Shown here piece after piece: positions 3,938-45,252 of a stretch of 45,252 nucleotides of DNA. Origin of the DNA: a virus. The DNA is taken from IMG/VR virus record IMGVR_UViG_3300022540_000340, positions 1 through 45,252 of that record; one strand, given 5' to 3'. The notes beneath the pieces were generated by a model. The model was not told the DNA's origin. It saw nothing but the letters and a program-made list of their open reading frames with translations, and ran no database searches. Position 1 is the first letter of the stretch; the number at the start of each line of letters is the position of its first letter. Both the position numbers and the translations under genes were made by a program.

Positions 3938-4768
3938 ATGAGAGGATTTGTAAAGTTACACAGGCAACTTATAGAATGGGAATGGTATCATGATATGAAT
4001 GTAAAGGCTACTTTCTTGCATTTACTGCTTACTGTTAATTTTAAGGATAAGCGATGGAAAGGTATATTAATCAAGCGAGGGCAAATATTAACTAGCTTGC
4101 AGCACTTAGCCGATGCTATTGGTATATCAGTGCAAAAACTACGCACAGCACTACTAAAGCTAGAGGACACTAATGAAATAACAAGGGAAGCAACAAGCCT
4201 TTTTACTATGATAACTGTCTGTAACTTCGACAGTTACCAAGATAAAGACCTTATGCAGCAACAAGCGGATAACAAACCATCAACAAGCGAGCAACAAGCG
4301 GATAACAAACCATCAACAAGCGAGCAACAACTACTAGAGAATGTTAAGAATGAAGAGAAGGATAATAATGAAGAGAAAAAATACCCTTACATAGAGATTT
4401 TCCAAAAAATAAAAAACGGCGAATTAATCAGAGTAACACAATTAGATAAAAACTTTCACTTTGGCTTATTCCCTGATGATTGGTCTGAAAACTTCCAAAA
4501 TGAAATACTTAGCTTTTGGCGTTACATGGAAAGTAAGAAATCAGATCGTTGGGGCGTAATTGGAACAATATCTAGTCAATTAAGCGCAATTAAAAGTTAT
4601 TTACAAGATTACACCGAAAATGAGATAATAAGCGCATTTGGCGAAACCATAAGCAAAGGAAATGTTTCTTGGAATCCTCTTTGGACTAAAAACCGAGATA
4701 AAATCTCAAAAGCAAAAAACGGACACGTTCCCACTTTTTCATATAACAGCAAAATAAGCAACGCATGA
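3938..4768 (+). CDS. replication initiator-like protein (DnaD / phage O type)
   Basis: A 276-residue protein. The N-terminal 95 residues, starting MRGFVKLHRQLIEWEWYHD, have the winged-helix layout of phage replication initiators (ILTSLQHLADAIGISVQKLRTALLKLE is the helix-turn-helix part). A linker contains QQADNKPSTSE twice in tandem. The C-terminal part (about 155-276) is helical and could contact the helicase. The stop overlaps the DnaB start by 4 bases (4765-4768), which supports a paired role in helicase loading. The frame is open to 3836, but 3938 lies just past the leader terminator and is preferred. Expression is probably set by leader RNA 2. Confidence 0.75.
   Translation: MRGFVKLHRQLIEWEWYHDMNVKATFLHLLLTVNFKDKRWKGILIKRGQILTSLQHLADAIGISVQKLRTALLKLEDTNEITREATSLFTMITVCNFDSYQDKDLMQQQADNKPSTSEQQADNKPSTSEQQLLENVKNEEKDNNEEKKYPYIEIFQKIKNGELIRVTQLDKNFHFGLFPDDWSENFQNEILSFWRYMESKKSDRWGVIGTISSQLSAIKSYLQDYTENEIISAFGETISKGNVSWNPLWTKNRDKISKAKNGHVPTFSYNSKISNA
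4257..4322 (+). repeat. 33-bp tandem duplication in initiator gene
   Basis: Two consecutive in-frame copies of a 33-bp unit encode an 11-residue repeat (QQADNKPSTSE). The copies look identical, so the duplication is recent or kept homogeneous. It lengthens the linker between the DNA-binding and C-terminal parts. Confidence 0.75.
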
Positions 4769-11284: not shown

Positions 11285-11358
11285 GAACATGAGGCTAAAT
11301 TGGCGAAGCGCACCGAAGTAAGTAGGTGAGATTGTAGGTTCGAGTCCTACCTAGTTCA
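11285..11358 (+). tRNA. tRNA-like sequence with irregular anticodon loop
   Basis: A perfect T arm (GTAGG-TTCGAGT-CCTAC, 11334-11350), a D arm GCT...AGC with TTGGCGA in the loop, an acceptor with five of seven pairs and a normal total length of 74. The anticodon stem CACC/GGTG closes an 8-base loop (AAGTAAGT) plus a mismatch, so no standard anticodon can be assigned. AAG follows the only possible U33. It is either a degenerate tRNA or one with an expanded loop. Confidence 0.5.
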
Positions 11359-12389: not shown

Positions 12390-12460
12390 GGATGAGTGGC
12401 CGAGCGGTTAGGTAGTGGATTGCAACCCCACGCACGAAGGTTCGATTCCTTTCTCATTCT
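12390..12460 (+). tRNA. tRNA-Cys (GCA)
   Basis: All arms can be drawn: a seven-pair acceptor (12390-12396 with 12453-12459, one G-T), a D arm with GAGCGGTTA, an anticodon arm GTGGA-TTGCAAC-CCCAC with anticodon GCA at 12422-12424 (one A-C mismatch), and a T arm GAAGG-TTCGATT-CCTTT. CCA is not encoded. It is flanked by a leader hairpin and a terminator, so it is a separate transcript. Confidence 0.85.
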
Positions 12461-12511
12461 CTATAAAGGAGTTTCATTTTTACAAGTTTAATTAGGTTAA
12501 TTGGATAGTGT

Positions 12512-12839: not shown

Positions 12840-13099
12840 TGACAACAAATTCAAGCATAAACGAGGTAGTAGCAGAAGTTAAGGAATTGCGGAATAATTA
12901 CAATCAACTTGACACAAAAGAAAGGCAAAGCAAAATAGGTCGTGCGTTCTATAATGCAATAACTGCTAGAATCCAATGGATTAAAAAACAAGATAGCACT
13001 CCTTTTAAAAAACAAGATAGCACTCCTTTTAAAAAACGCTTTGAGCAAAGAAGGAGAAACGTAGGAAACTATAAAAAAGCCATAGATGAAGCAGACTAA
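12839..13099 (+). CDS. hypothetical basic protein with 8-residue repeat
   Basis: An 86-residue protein starting MTTNSSINEVVAEVKELRNN, helical with a basic C-terminus. It carries a tandem 8-residue repeat (KKQDSTPF twice) from a 24-bp DNA duplication at 12983-13030. No family recognised. Overlaps the next gene by 14 bases. Confidence 0.6.
   Translation: MTTNSSINEVVAEVKELRNNYNQLDTKERQSKIGRAFYNAITARIQWIKKQDSTPFKKQDSTPFKKRFEQRRRNVGNYKKAIDEAD
12983..13030 (+). repeat. 24-bp tandem duplication
   Basis: Two identical adjacent 24-bp units within the gene at 12839-13099. The duplication is in frame and so keeps the protein intact. Confidence 0.85.
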
Positions 13100-27721: not shown

Positions 27722-30346
27722 ATGGCTGATTTCTTTATAGATTATAACGACCTTATTAGGGATGATGGAACATTCCAAAAGCTAGATAAGGAGATTGATA
27801 AGCTTGAGAAAAGGCTCAAAGAATTAGCTAAAGTTCAAAAGAAAGCTTTTGAGGGTGTCGCTCCTGATGACATTGCAGGGATTGAGAAGATGGAAAAAGC
27901 AGCTAATGAGTTGTTAAAGTCTGAGAAGGAGCTAGTCAAGCAAAGAAAGATTAACAACAAGGTTAAGAAAAAAACTATTGACTTAACTAATGAGGAATTA
28001 GTCCAACGTGAAGCTGAAAAGATTAAGCAGCGTGAACGAATCCAACGGGCAAAGCAAGAAGCTATAATTCTAAAGGAAGAAAAGAACAACATTGCTAGTC
28101 TTAGGGCGCAATTGTCACTTGCTACATTGGACTGGAAAAAGTTCACAGCAGCAGAACTAAAGAATACTAAAGCAGGAAAGGCAGCCGTAAAGAATAAAAG
28201 GAACTTAACAAAGGAACTTAAAAAGCTTGAAAAGGCAACTGGAGACAACCGCAGAAATGTAGGAAACTATACAAGTGCTTTACAAGGGTTGAATGGTGTT
28301 ATGGTCGGGTTTGGTGGTAACATTGGATTCACATTAGGTGCTTTAAAGTCATTAGGTGGAGTGCTAAAAGCGGTAGCACTAGGATTTAAAACGCTAAGAG
28401 GTGCTTTAATTAGTACAGGAATAGGTGCTATTGTAGTTGCATTTGGCGCATTGGTTACGTTCCTTACTAAAACACAAAGAGGATTAGACTTTGTTAATCG
28501 TGCTTTTGCTGCGGTTACTACCACTATTGATGTAATTATTGATAGAATTAGTAAGTTTGGTGAGGCAATAGGATTAGCTTTTCAGGGTAAATTTGCAGAG
28601 GCAGCGGATAAGTTTAAAGAAAGTGTAAGCGGTGTAGGTGACGAAATTGTAAGAGAAGCAAATGCAGCCGTACAGCTTGAAAAAGACTTACAAAAGTTAG
28701 AGAAGCAAGAAATAAAACTTATCACAGTCAACGCTAAAAAAGCTAGGCAAATAGCAGAACTTGAAAGGCTAGCAGAAGAGAATAAAAATAATGATAAAAA
28801 GCGAGCTAAAGAGCAGCTAGAAAGTGCTATTAAACTACAATCAGAAATATCAGACAATGAAGTAAGGGTAGCAAAAGAAAGGGCTAGAATTGCCAATGCT
28901 CAATTAGCTTTATCAGAGTCTACTAATGACGAAATAAGAGCAGCAGCAGAACTGACAGCAGATATTGAACGAGCAGAGAAAGCAAGAGAGGATAGAATAA
29001 GAGGACTTACAAGGAAATTAAACAGCCTTACAGGGGTTCAAAAAGATAATACAAAAGAGATAGATGCCAATACCAAAGCAGCCGAAAAAAATGCAGAGTT
29101 AAGATTGAAAGCTTTGGATTCTTTAATTAAGCAAGTAGGTCAATTAGAAGCAAAAGGCAAAGTAGATTTAAAAGCCCGTTCTTTAGCTTTAGAAACTCAA
29201 AGATTCAATGAGGAACAGTCATTAAGAATATCTCAATATACAGAATTAAGGACATTAACGGAAACACAAAATGGAGATATTCAGCAAGTTGATGACCTAA
29301 ATAATAGAGCCTTAGAAGCGCAAAAGGACATACACAAAAATAACTTACTAAAAATAGAAACGGATTATGCTGCTAAGTCTATAAAGATTGAACAGGATAG
29401 AGTGAAAGGAATAACAGCGACAGTAAGAGAAGCACAGGACTTAATAAAAGAACAGAGTGCCAAAGATATAGATTTATTTGCAGAGGACTTAAAGAAAAAA
29501 CAGGCTTTAGTGGCCGAAGCGGATGCAGAAGCAAGGACAAAAGAACAGGCAGCACAACAGGAACGCAAAGATAGTAATCAAAAGCTACTAAAGGACGTAC
29601 AAGAAAACGCTAAAAAAGTTTCTGCAATAATAGTAGACCTATTTAACAAGCAGTCAGAACTCGCAGCGCAAAGGGTAACGGATCAAGAAGCTAACTTATC
29701 AAGAGAAGAGGAAAGGGCAGCGAAGGGTTATGATAACCAAGTAGCCTTTGAAAAGAAAGCTTTAGCAGATAGGCAAGCGGAACAAGTTAAAGCAGCGGAA
29801 ACGGCAAAGAATATAGCTAAGGCAGCGGTTTTGATTAACCTAGTCAGTGCTTATGCTGCAAATGGAGATAAGAACGCTTTAACGAGTGGCCTTCGTGACT
29901 TTGGATTGTTACAAGCAGCGGAAGCAGCCTTTGGAGGTTTTGAGGAAGGTGGATATACAGGAGAACAGGGAATTAGTGATATTGCGGGTGTTGTTCATGG
30001 CCAAGAATATGTAGTAACGGCAAGTGATACTGAAAAGTTTGGTCTTCGTGGTAAGGCTGGTAGTGACTTTGGTGAAGCTATGGGGGATTATTTCAATCCT
30101 CAAACGCCACTAAGTACAAATCCATACAAAGCACAAAGCGAAGCATTCAAAAAGAGTGTGACTGTTAAGCAAAATAATGAGGTTTTAACTGAGTTGAAAG
30201 GTATTAAGAAGCAGTTAGCTAGTCAGCCTAATTATAGCAGTCAGATAGTGGAGGTAGAAAAGCAAATGTTTGAACGGGTGCTAAGGATTAACAAACAGAA
30301 TATGACTACTATTCGTAGGGAGATATTAAGAGCAGCTAAGAAATAG
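27722..30346 (+). CDS. tail tape measure protein
   Basis: An 874-residue protein, the longest in the genome. Residues 1-160 are coiled coil, a Gly/Ala-rich hydrophobic region follows at about 190-255, then long coiled coils (about 300-700). The C-terminal region GGFEEGGYTGEQG ... GVVHGQEYVV is typical of tape measure proteins. It sets tail length and is ejected during DNA injection. By length a tail of roughly 130 nm would be expected from the usual 1.5 angstrom per residue rule, an estimate only. Confidence 0.93.
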   Translation: MADFFIDYNDLIRDDGTFQKLDKEIDKLEKRLKELAKVQKKAFEGVAPDDIAGIEKMEKAANELLKSEKELVKQRKINNKVKKKTIDLTNEELVQREAEKIKQRERIQRAKQEAIILKEEKNNIASLRAQLSLATLDWKKFTAAELKNTKAGKAAVKNKRNLTKELKKLEKATGDNRRNVGNYTSALQGLNGVMVGFGGNIGFTLGALKSLGGVLKAVALGFKTLRGALISTGIGAIVVAFGALVTFLTKTQRGLDFVNRAFAAVTTTIDVIIDRISKFGEAIGLAFQGKFAEAADKFKESVSGVGDEIVREANAAVQLEKDLQKLEKQEIKLITVNAKKARQIAELERLAEENKNNDKKRAKEQLESAIKLQSEISDNEVRVAKERARIANAQLALSESTNDEIRAAAELTADIERAEKAREDRIRGLTRKLNSLTGVQKDNTKEIDANTKAAEKNAELRLKALDSLIKQVGQLEAKGKVDLKARSLALETQRFNEEQSLRISQYTELRTLTETQNGDIQQVDDLNNRALEAQKDIHKNNLLKIETDYAAKSIKIEQDRVKGITATVREAQDLIKEQSAKDIDLFAEDLKKKQALVAEADAEARTKEQAAQQERKDSNQKLLKDVQENAKKVSAIIVDLFNKQSELAAQRVTDQEANLSREEERAAKGYDNQVAFEKKALADRQAEQVKAAETAKNIAKAAVLINLVSAYAANGDKNALTSGLRDFGLLQAAEAAFGGFEEGGYTGEQGISDIAGVVHGQEYVVTASDTEKFGLRGKAGSDFGEAMGDYFNPQTPLSTNPYKAQSEAFKKSVTVKQNNEVLTELKGIKKQLASQPNYSSQIVEVEKQMFERVLRINKQNMTTIRREILRAAKK

Positions 30347-30348
30347 TT

Positions 30349-30437
30349 ATTAGGCCCCGTTGGCCAATACGCATTGGGCCCGTTGGCCCACAACATTAGG
30401 CCCCGTTGGCCAATACGCATTGGGCCCGTTGGCCCAC
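30349..30437. repeat. GC-rich array, four units at 23-bp period
   Basis: CCCGTTGGCC occurs at 30356, 30379, 30402 and 30425, exactly 23 bases apart. Spacers alternate AATACGCATTGGG and CACAACATTAGGC, so the array is also two copies of a 43-base unit offset by 46 bases. Neither 23 nor 46 is a multiple of three, which argues against coding. GGCCAAT/ATTGG inverted pairs lie within each unit. It looks like an iteron or a protein-binding array and contrasts strongly with the AT-rich surroundings. Confidence 0.85.
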
Positions 30438-30458
30438 GTATCAATAATAACAATAACA

Positions 30459-32264
30459 ATGGCAAATTCTAGGCATTATTATAAAGAGCAACAGATAGAA
30501 GAACCCGAAGGATGGCAAGGAATAGAGGTAACTATTACCTTTGGCGATGGTCGTACTGAAATTTCTATCAACAAAGATAACCTAGTATTTAAAGGTGACG
30601 ATGCAAAAAAGATAATAGACGACTTCGACAATAACGGCTATTTTGAGGGTAGAGAATACAGGATAGAGATAGGGGAATTATTAGACCCTGCCCTTACCTT
30701 TAATGGCATTTTAAACCCTTCAAAGAATCCTATCTTTATAGATTGCAACCAAATTCAAATCCCACTTGAAAGAAAGCAGGGGAATGATTGGTTACTGGAA
30801 AGTGCTGAAAGTATTAGTTATAGGTTTTTGGCTGATTCTAGCTATAATGATAGAGGTAGCATTTCGGATTCGGATTATGTAAGAGTGCCGTATATTATCA
30901 ATTATATTCCAGATGGTATGCAATTGCTGTTTTTAGCAATATCAACCTTTATGCTAACTAAGGAATTAGTTGAGAGTGTAAAGTCTATTGCTACACAGGT
31001 TGTTGACTTGGTGAAACAAGTAGTTCCGAACGTGGGTACAAGTGTTGGACTAGGTGCAGGGGTTGTTACTTCGTGGAGTATAGGGCAGGTAGTAGGTGCT
31101 ATAATCAATCTAGCTGTTACCGTAGCTTATGCCGTTGGTATGATAGTAGGATTAGTGGAGCTCACAAAACAAATAATAGAACAACTAGCTCCTGTTAAGC
31201 GTTTCCATTTAGGAATGAGCATAAAAAGCTTAGTAGTCAAATCTTGTGAATACTTAGGACTAGAATACAAAAGCACTTTGCTTGATGCCTTAGATACGAG
31301 TGCTGAAAGTTGGACTATTATCCCTAAAAAGTTTCACAAAGGGGGCATACCTCCAACTGGATTGTTATTTGCAGAATTTAAAGAGACAGGAGTACCTGAC
31401 AGTGGTGATGGTATAGATAACTTTGGCCAACTTTTAGGAGTATTAAAGCGTACCTTCAATGCTGATTTTATTATTGAAAATGATGTTTTTCAGTTTGAGC
31501 GGTGGGATTATTGGAAGGACAAAGGAACTTATACAATACCAAGCACTTTTATTGACCAGGACAATTATAGAAACCCACACAAAAAGAATACTGATAGCCT
31601 AAAATCTAATTATGTTATAGGCTGGGAAACTGACATAGAGGATAAAAATACACTCGACAATAAAAACGGCTTAGTTTACCAAGTAATTACCACACAAAAA
31701 GCAATAGCTAATCCCGACTTATCCACATTAAAAGGATTAGAAAACGTGAACGTTCCTTTTAGTATGGCAGTTAGAAAAGATAAATTAACAGCTATCGAGG
31801 AGGTTCTAAAGGTATTCTTACAGGCTGCTGATTTCCTAAGTGGACAACTAGACCAACCTAATAGTTTTGCTGCTCAATTTAGCGCAAGGATAGGAAGTAT
31901 GCACCTGTCAAGTCACAAAACAACCAAGCCTAAGATGGTTGTAATGGCAGGAGCGACACTTGCAAAGAACCAACGGCAAATAATGGCAGCGAGTAAGTTA
32001 TGGTCAGATTATCACTATATCAATAGTTTTGTTACTCAATCAGATGGCAGCAATAACCAACAGTTTATATACGAAGAACAGAAAATACCTTTTTGCTTTG
32101 AAAATTTCGTATCTTTGGGAGGTAACCCGTACCAAAACACAGAAAATGGCGAAAGTGCGAAGATAAAAGAAATAGTTTGGAATTACGAAGCTAACACAGC
32201 GACTATATCCTATAATGTATTTAGGGTTTATGATGATAATTTAAAAGAAACATTCTTAGACTAA
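30459..32264 (+). CDS. tail tip / distal tail protein with hydrophobic segments
   Basis: A 601-residue protein starting MANSRHYYKEQQIEEPEGWQ. The frame is open to 30360, but that start would translate the GC-rich repeats, so 30459 is chosen. Residues about 135-250 hold hydrophobic helices (SLGLGAGVV-type and VGMIVGLVELTK-type), unusual for a tail protein. The flanks are strand-rich and virion-like. Position right after the tape measure suggests the distal tail or tip, and the hydrophobic part might enter the host membrane during infection. Confidence 0.7.
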   Translation: MANSRHYYKEQQIEEPEGWQGIEVTITFGDGRTEISINKDNLVFKGDDAKKIIDDFDNNGYFEGREYRIEIGELLDPALTFNGILNPSKNPIFIDCNQIQIPLERKQGNDWLLESAESISYRFLADSSYNDRGSISDSDYVRVPYIINYIPDGMQLLFLAISTFMLTKELVESVKSIATQVVDLVKQVVPNVGTSVGLGAGVVTSWSIGQVVGAIINLAVTVAYAVGMIVGLVELTKQIIEQLAPVKRFHLGMSIKSLVVKSCEYLGLEYKSTLLDALDTSAESWTIIPKKFHKGGIPPTGLLFAEFKETGVPDSGDGIDNFGQLLGVLKRTFNADFIIENDVFQFERWDYWKDKGTYTIPSTFIDQDNYRNPHKKNTDSLKSNYVIGWETDIEDKNTLDNKNGLVYQVITTQKAIANPDLSTLKGLENVNVPFSMAVRKDKLTAIEEVLKVFLQAADFLSGQLDQPNSFAAQFSARIGSMHLSSHKTTKPKMVVMAGATLAKNQRQIMAASKLWSDYHYINSFVTQSDGSNNQQFIYEEQKIPFCFENFVSLGGNPYQNTENGESAKIKEIVWNYEANTATISYNVFRVYDDNLKETFLD

Positions 32265-44861: not shown

Positions 44862-45252
44862 AAAACAATATTCAGTAAAGAATACCTATTAGAGAATAAA
44901 GGATACTACGATAATGAAGATATAGAAAAAGGAATGCTTCATTTCAAAGAAAACAAAGAAATAACTTTGGAGCAGCTTTTTGAGTACCTACCGATTAAAG
45001 ACTTCTGTTGGTTGTTAGTCAGAAAGTGTGAATTAAGTTTATTACAAAAGCAATTCTTTAGTTTATCGTGTGCCGATTTTGTTCTGAAATTTTACGAAGC
45101 TAAATACCCAAATGACATGAGGGTTAGAGAATGCAACAAAGCGACTAGAGATTATATAAATGGCGATATTAGCAAAGAAGAACTTTTAACTTATGCCGCT
45201 TCTGCGGCTTCTGCGGCTTCTGCGGCTTCTGCGGCTTCTGCGGCTTCTGCGG
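44859..45252 (+). CDS. Ala/Ser-repeat protein, N-terminal part (runs off the window)
   Basis: Starts MKTIFSKEYLLENKGYYDNE. The first 113 residues are a compact helical domain with CWLLVRKCELSLLQ and the segment RECNKATRDYINGDISKEEL. An Ala-Ser-Ala repeat then begins and runs to the window end, continuing at 1-141. The sequence before the repeat (KATRDYINGDISKEEL) resembles the part before Ala-rich repeats in phage proteins labelled putative immunity protein. The function of that group is not known to me. Confidence 0.8.
   Translation, partial: MKTIFSKEYLLENKGYYDNEDIEKGMLHFKENKEITLEQLFEYLPIKDFCWLLVRKCELSLLQKQFFSLSCADFVLKFYEAKYPNDMRVRECNKATRDYINGDISKEELLTYAASAASAASAASAASAASA
45198..45252. repeat. 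9-bp tandem repeat, right copy of terminal overlap
   Basis: Six copies of GCTTCTGCG plus G, identical to bases 1-55. See the left copy. Confidence 0.9.

Follow-up and report, generated by a model that had tools for sequence, protein, structure and literature searches.

The window, by which we mean the whole stretch of 45,252 nucleotides that was analysed, carries a short GC-rich array at 30349–30437, between two tail genes as the first-pass annotation had stated. Upstream lies the tail tape-measure gene of 874 aa (27722–30346, plus strand; PHROG 20660, tail length tape measure, E 3.8e-13), whose stop codon occupies 30344–30346, and downstream lies a conserved tail gene of 601 aa (30459–32264, plus strand; PHROG 12387, E 1.5e-142). 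The array occupies the 112-nt gap between them; the remaining junctions across 24.7–38.5 kb measure −4 to 44 nt. Homologues of the 601-aa protein occur in the Flavobacterium phages FpV9 and relatives, tant8-1 and 1/32 (35–37% identity), and the phage is of Flavobacterium type. Alignment of the N terminus with three named phages places the start of this protein at ATG 30459 and not at the upstream TTG 30360, which makes the array non-coding. The tape-measure product is 34% identical to its counterpart in the closest relative, L063, in an alignment that reaches nearly the last codon. A Bacteroidetes-type promoter (TAnnTTTG) was found neither in the window's junction gap nor in that of L063.

A 46-bp unit, ATTAGGCCCCGTTGGCCAATACGCATTGGGCCCGTTGGCCCACAAC, is present in the array as two identical copies, 43 bp of which are common to both. 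Tandem repeat analysis gave a 100% match over 1.9 copies, and 46 bp is thus the true period. Each unit is composed of two unequal half-units, A of 24 bp and B of 22 bp, which explains why the shorter motif CCCGTTGGCC returns at steps of exactly 23 bp (30356, 30379, 30402 and 30425), a fourfold recurrence that had been reported correctly. Adjacent 23-bp half-units are merely 67% alike when compared in register. Exact copies of CCCGTTGGCC are confined to the array within the whole window; when up to one mismatch was allowed there were 6 matches against 0.55 expected, a number reached in 0 of 100 shuffles. The sharp departure from the base composition of the genome was confirmed as well, since no other 89-mer in the window is as rich in GC as the array (62.9%, against a mean of 35.5% with an sd of 5.3%). 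No other exact tandem repeat in the window is as long, except for a 9-bp run at the record ends. Other exact tandem repeats lie at 4257–4330 (33-bp unit, within an ORF) and 12981–13037 (24-bp unit). The record ends (1–77 and 45190–45252) are runs of GCTTCTGCG, into which an open frame from 44859 extends. Because the 55-bp end repeat is built of this 9-bp unit, the apparent circularity of the record could be an assembly effect.

The claimed incompatibility of the period with any reading frame holds for the repeat, even though two frames run open through the array by chance. A coding repeat was rejected on the grounds that the 46-bp period shifts the frame and that the downstream gene starts beyond the array in the alignment with relatives. 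A fragment of a collagen-like gene was rejected too: the unrelated contigs L009 and L013 have similar letters in repetitive stretches that apparently code for Gly-Pro, but no frame is kept in the array. Avoidance of GGCC is not an explanation either, as 28 GGCC sites lie outside the array and GGCC is therefore not rare elsewhere.

Every half-unit is predicted to form a hairpin with GGCC arms around a loop, a feature missing from the first-pass annotation. All four are on the plus strand. Half-unit A1 (30349–30372) comprises the hairpin ATTAGGCC-CCGTT-GGCCAAT, with a bulged A, and the linker ACGC. Half-unit B1 (30373–30394) comprises the hairpin TGGGCC-CGTT-GGCCCA, with a perfect 6-bp stem, and the linker CAAC. 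A2 (30395–30418) copies A1 exactly, and B2 (30419–30437) copies B1 exactly up to the last shared C. The first of the four hairpins lies 6 nt past the tape-measure stop and the last ~20 nt ahead of the start of the next tail gene, from which it is separated by an A-rich leader (30438–30458, plus strand). The half-units are predicted to fold individually, at −10.8 kcal/mol for B and −6.6 kcal/mol for A, and B1 and B2 contain the only perfect 6-bp stems in the window with at least 5 G/C per arm and a loop of 3–8. The flanking arms GTTATTA (30346–30352) and TAATAAC (30445–30451), inverted pair I9, could in addition pair and close the hairpin cluster, so that the whole structured spacer would span 30346–30451 on the plus strand; the minimum free energy predicted for 30340–30470 is −42.8 kcal/mol.

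The array region has the most stable predicted 92-nt fold of the window on either strand. Against dinucleotide shuffles, its z-score is −2.55 for DNA energy and merely −1.6 for RNA energy, and hence a good part of the fold stability is explained by GC composition. The folding energy at the array is the lowest among the 42 gene ends in the window, while by z it ranks fourth, behind 8458, 38504 and 39287. These three are clear hairpins located at the ends of gene blocks, which makes the array the one outstanding hairpin site within the structural block. Elsewhere in the window, the intergenic stretch 2664–2752 folds into a long stem of great predicted strength (z −7.3; AAAGCTTTGGAGGT...ACCTCCAAAGCTTTTTTTTG), which resembles a terminator with a large apical region and is perhaps a small RNA.

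The first-pass annotation had favoured an iteron-like site for replication, partition, packaging or repression. Iteron arrays of replicons have a regular spacing near two helical turns, and the array resembles them in having four sites at 23-bp steps, each with the short exact core CCCGTTGGCC. In contrast to iterons, however, each half-unit has inverted symmetry with GGCC arms, and the array lies far from the replication, recombination and terminase genes: the DnaB-like helicase gene is at 4.8 kb, about 24 kb away, the terminase gene at 15.5 kb and the ERF recombinase gene at 42.8 kb. An iteron origin would consist of direct repeats beside an initiator gene with a change in skew or depth. No replication initiator is encoded nearby, and the GC skew around 30.4 kb, which had been proposed as a check for an origin, shows no switch. 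Together with the confinement of the exact core to this one place in the window, these results make a protein-binding array at the DNA level very unlikely.

A comparison of the gap between the tape-measure and tail genes in related phages had also been proposed. Our comparison set drew on viral contigs, genomes and named phages and comprised 40 related loci, some of them near-duplicates; the close relative was found by profile A2, and none was found with portal or tail proteins as single queries. The array is absent from all 40 loci, and whole-record searches of the relatives revealed no similar DNA beyond one chance-level match. A closed junction, with −4 to +2 nt between the tape-measure stop and the next start, is present in 38 of the 40, near-duplicates included. 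The other two, L063 and L094, have an open junction with strong hairpins of unrelated sequence. L063, at 57% protein identity, has a gap of 100 nt (L063 2901–3000) with a 12-bp bulged hairpin 5 nt past the tape-measure stop and a T-rich tail (CTATTTCTTT); its z-score is −3.4 by dinucleotide shuffles. L094 is a distant relative (33% identity) with a gap of 85 nt (L094 2811–2895), in which a hairpin with a z-score of −4.75, likewise by dinucleotide shuffles, starts 5 nt past the tape-measure stop and is preceded by an A run. Read on the opposite strand, this hairpin is scored as a terminator, and its poly-T tail lies on the minus strand. The spacers of the window, L063 and L094 show no sequence kinship among the three, whereas the A-rich leader (in part) and the gene start align between the window and L063 right beside the differing spacers. 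Over the 70 nt past the tape-measure stop, mononucleotide-shuffle z-scores were −3.1, −2.3 and −3.4 in the window, L063 and L094, respectively, as against −2.0 to +1.4 in the other 38 loci. The proposed comparison had a divided outcome: absence from the relatives, which the first-pass annotation had named as a refuting result, holds for the array sequence itself, but other hairpins occupy the same junction in two of them. Hairpin spacers of unrelated sequence thus recur at this junction in 3 of 41 loci, a small sample in which the pattern was spotted post hoc and is suggestive only.

The exact 46-bp copies with diverged halves indicate that duplication happened at least twice, with the second event recent. 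A hairpin would have doubled and diverged into A and B, and the 46-bp pair would then have doubled recently. Possibly, the array is a neutral leftover, that is, a small functionless insertion enlarged by slipped-strand duplication. Such an origin would agree with the youth of the copies, as implied by their exactness, with the restriction of the sequence to this record among the collections searched, and with the commonness of tandem repeats elsewhere in the phage genome. Yet, the stems have been kept in both half-units despite their low likeness, the composition of the array is unusual, and strong hairpins appear again at the same junction in two relatives. We consider a functionless remnant unlikely.

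The sequence of the array is unique to this record among the collections searched, which may omit the near relatives of the record. Phage sequences gave no match, and the sole match in plasmids was 24 nt long and at chance level. The hairpin pattern had no match in viral contigs or genome contigs, and looser patterns gave just unrelated GC-rich matches in 395 Flavobacteriales genomes and none in viral contigs. Those 395 genomes contained no similar array and 395 genomes of the wider phylum no pattern match, although the host genome is probably not in either set. The best DNA match in Flavobacteriales, L049 (first 300 bases of the locus read), had an E of 0.0016 for one genome, a value that chance would yield across 395 genomes, and was dismissed. 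The short core GGCCCGTTGGCCCAC was found in 27 viral contigs as single matches only, and these were rejected as comparable arrays.

An alternative explanation might be that a palindromic repeat of the host, REP/BIME-like or another small palindromic element, was inserted here by chance, with any function residing in the host genome. Intercistronic palindromes of the REP/BIME type go back to Higgins et al. (1982, as cited in PMC12306157), and REPs have been proposed to influence mRNA stability and termination (PMC3733652). The array has the look of a BIME: GC-rich hairpins of 20–40 nt in alternating, unequal types form a short array between operon genes of an AT-rich genome, are extragenic palindromes of the 20–40 bp size of REPs, and occur in none of the relatives. 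Moreover, CGTC-type tagged repeats have been reported in Bacteroidetes (PMC3733652). Tagged REPs are defined by a GTAG or CGTC tag at one end (PMC3733652), however, and no such tag is present on either strand of 30346–30452. In addition, a search of the phage record for the Y1 (RAYT) transposase PF01797 was negative, and the array is at a single locus in a phage, whereas copies would be expected in the host genome. By tag and by phage-borne transposase the array thus falls outside the tagged REPs, although it may still work in a REP-like manner. With the searches of Flavobacteriales and of the wider phylum empty, we regard a chance insertion of host DNA as a secondary possibility, on the doubtful side.

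The array is best explained as a non-coding RNA hairpin spacer on the late mRNA, a reading to which we give a probability of about 45%. Elements of this kind are common while the repetition is unusual, and we infer the function of the array to be the uncoupling of the two tail genes, combined with shielding, pausing or trimming of the upstream message. In favour of this reading are the predicted fold, the location, the opened junction and the strong hairpins seen there in two relatives; against it weigh the share of GC content in the fold stability, the missing U run and the opposite-strand terminator score of the L094 hairpin. Acquired DNA and an RNA element, which the first-pass annotation had listed only as alternatives, indeed fit best. 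Carried on the late mRNA as an intercistronic spacer, the array would end the translational coupling through overlapping stop and start codons that most relatives appear to have. Its hairpins may protect the tape-measure message against exonucleases at the 3′ end, or may pause or partly stop transcription. The tape-measure protein and the downstream tail proteins would then be produced in different amounts.

Like an intrinsic terminator, the array places a GC hairpin directly past a stop codon, and the L094 junction has such a hairpin as well. In contrast to a terminator, it has four hairpins rather than one, and no T run follows them. The terminator scan was negative at the array for both strands, which together with the missing U run makes a classical intrinsic terminator unlikely. 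Cluster K mycobacteriophages, too, have short elements with inverted repeats immediately ahead of a gene start; their ESAS, 17-bp inverted repeats, lie beside the 13-bp SAS at many genes and are conserved between phages (PMC3203893). This differs from our array, which has four hairpins, lies at one locus instead of upstream of many gene starts, and is common to no relative.

If the reading as an RNA hairpin spacer is true, a few phages of this group opened a normally closed tape-measure/tail junction and filled it with unrelated hairpins. They would then offer a handy natural series in which to test the tuning of tail protein ratios by intercistronic hairpins; failing that, the array is a local curiosity. 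A bolder version would hold that the tandem hairpin array is a new phage regulatory element, bound by a dedicated RNA- or DNA-binding protein and setting the ratio of tape measure to tail tip, in a group whose members repeatedly evolved different hairpin spacers. We consider this highly improbable.

At the array, Rfam gave no structured RNA family above the gathering score. Elsewhere in the record, a gene for tRNA-Cys (GCA) lies at 12390–12461, and Rfam gave a second tRNA-like match, not called by ARAGORN, at 11285–11358.
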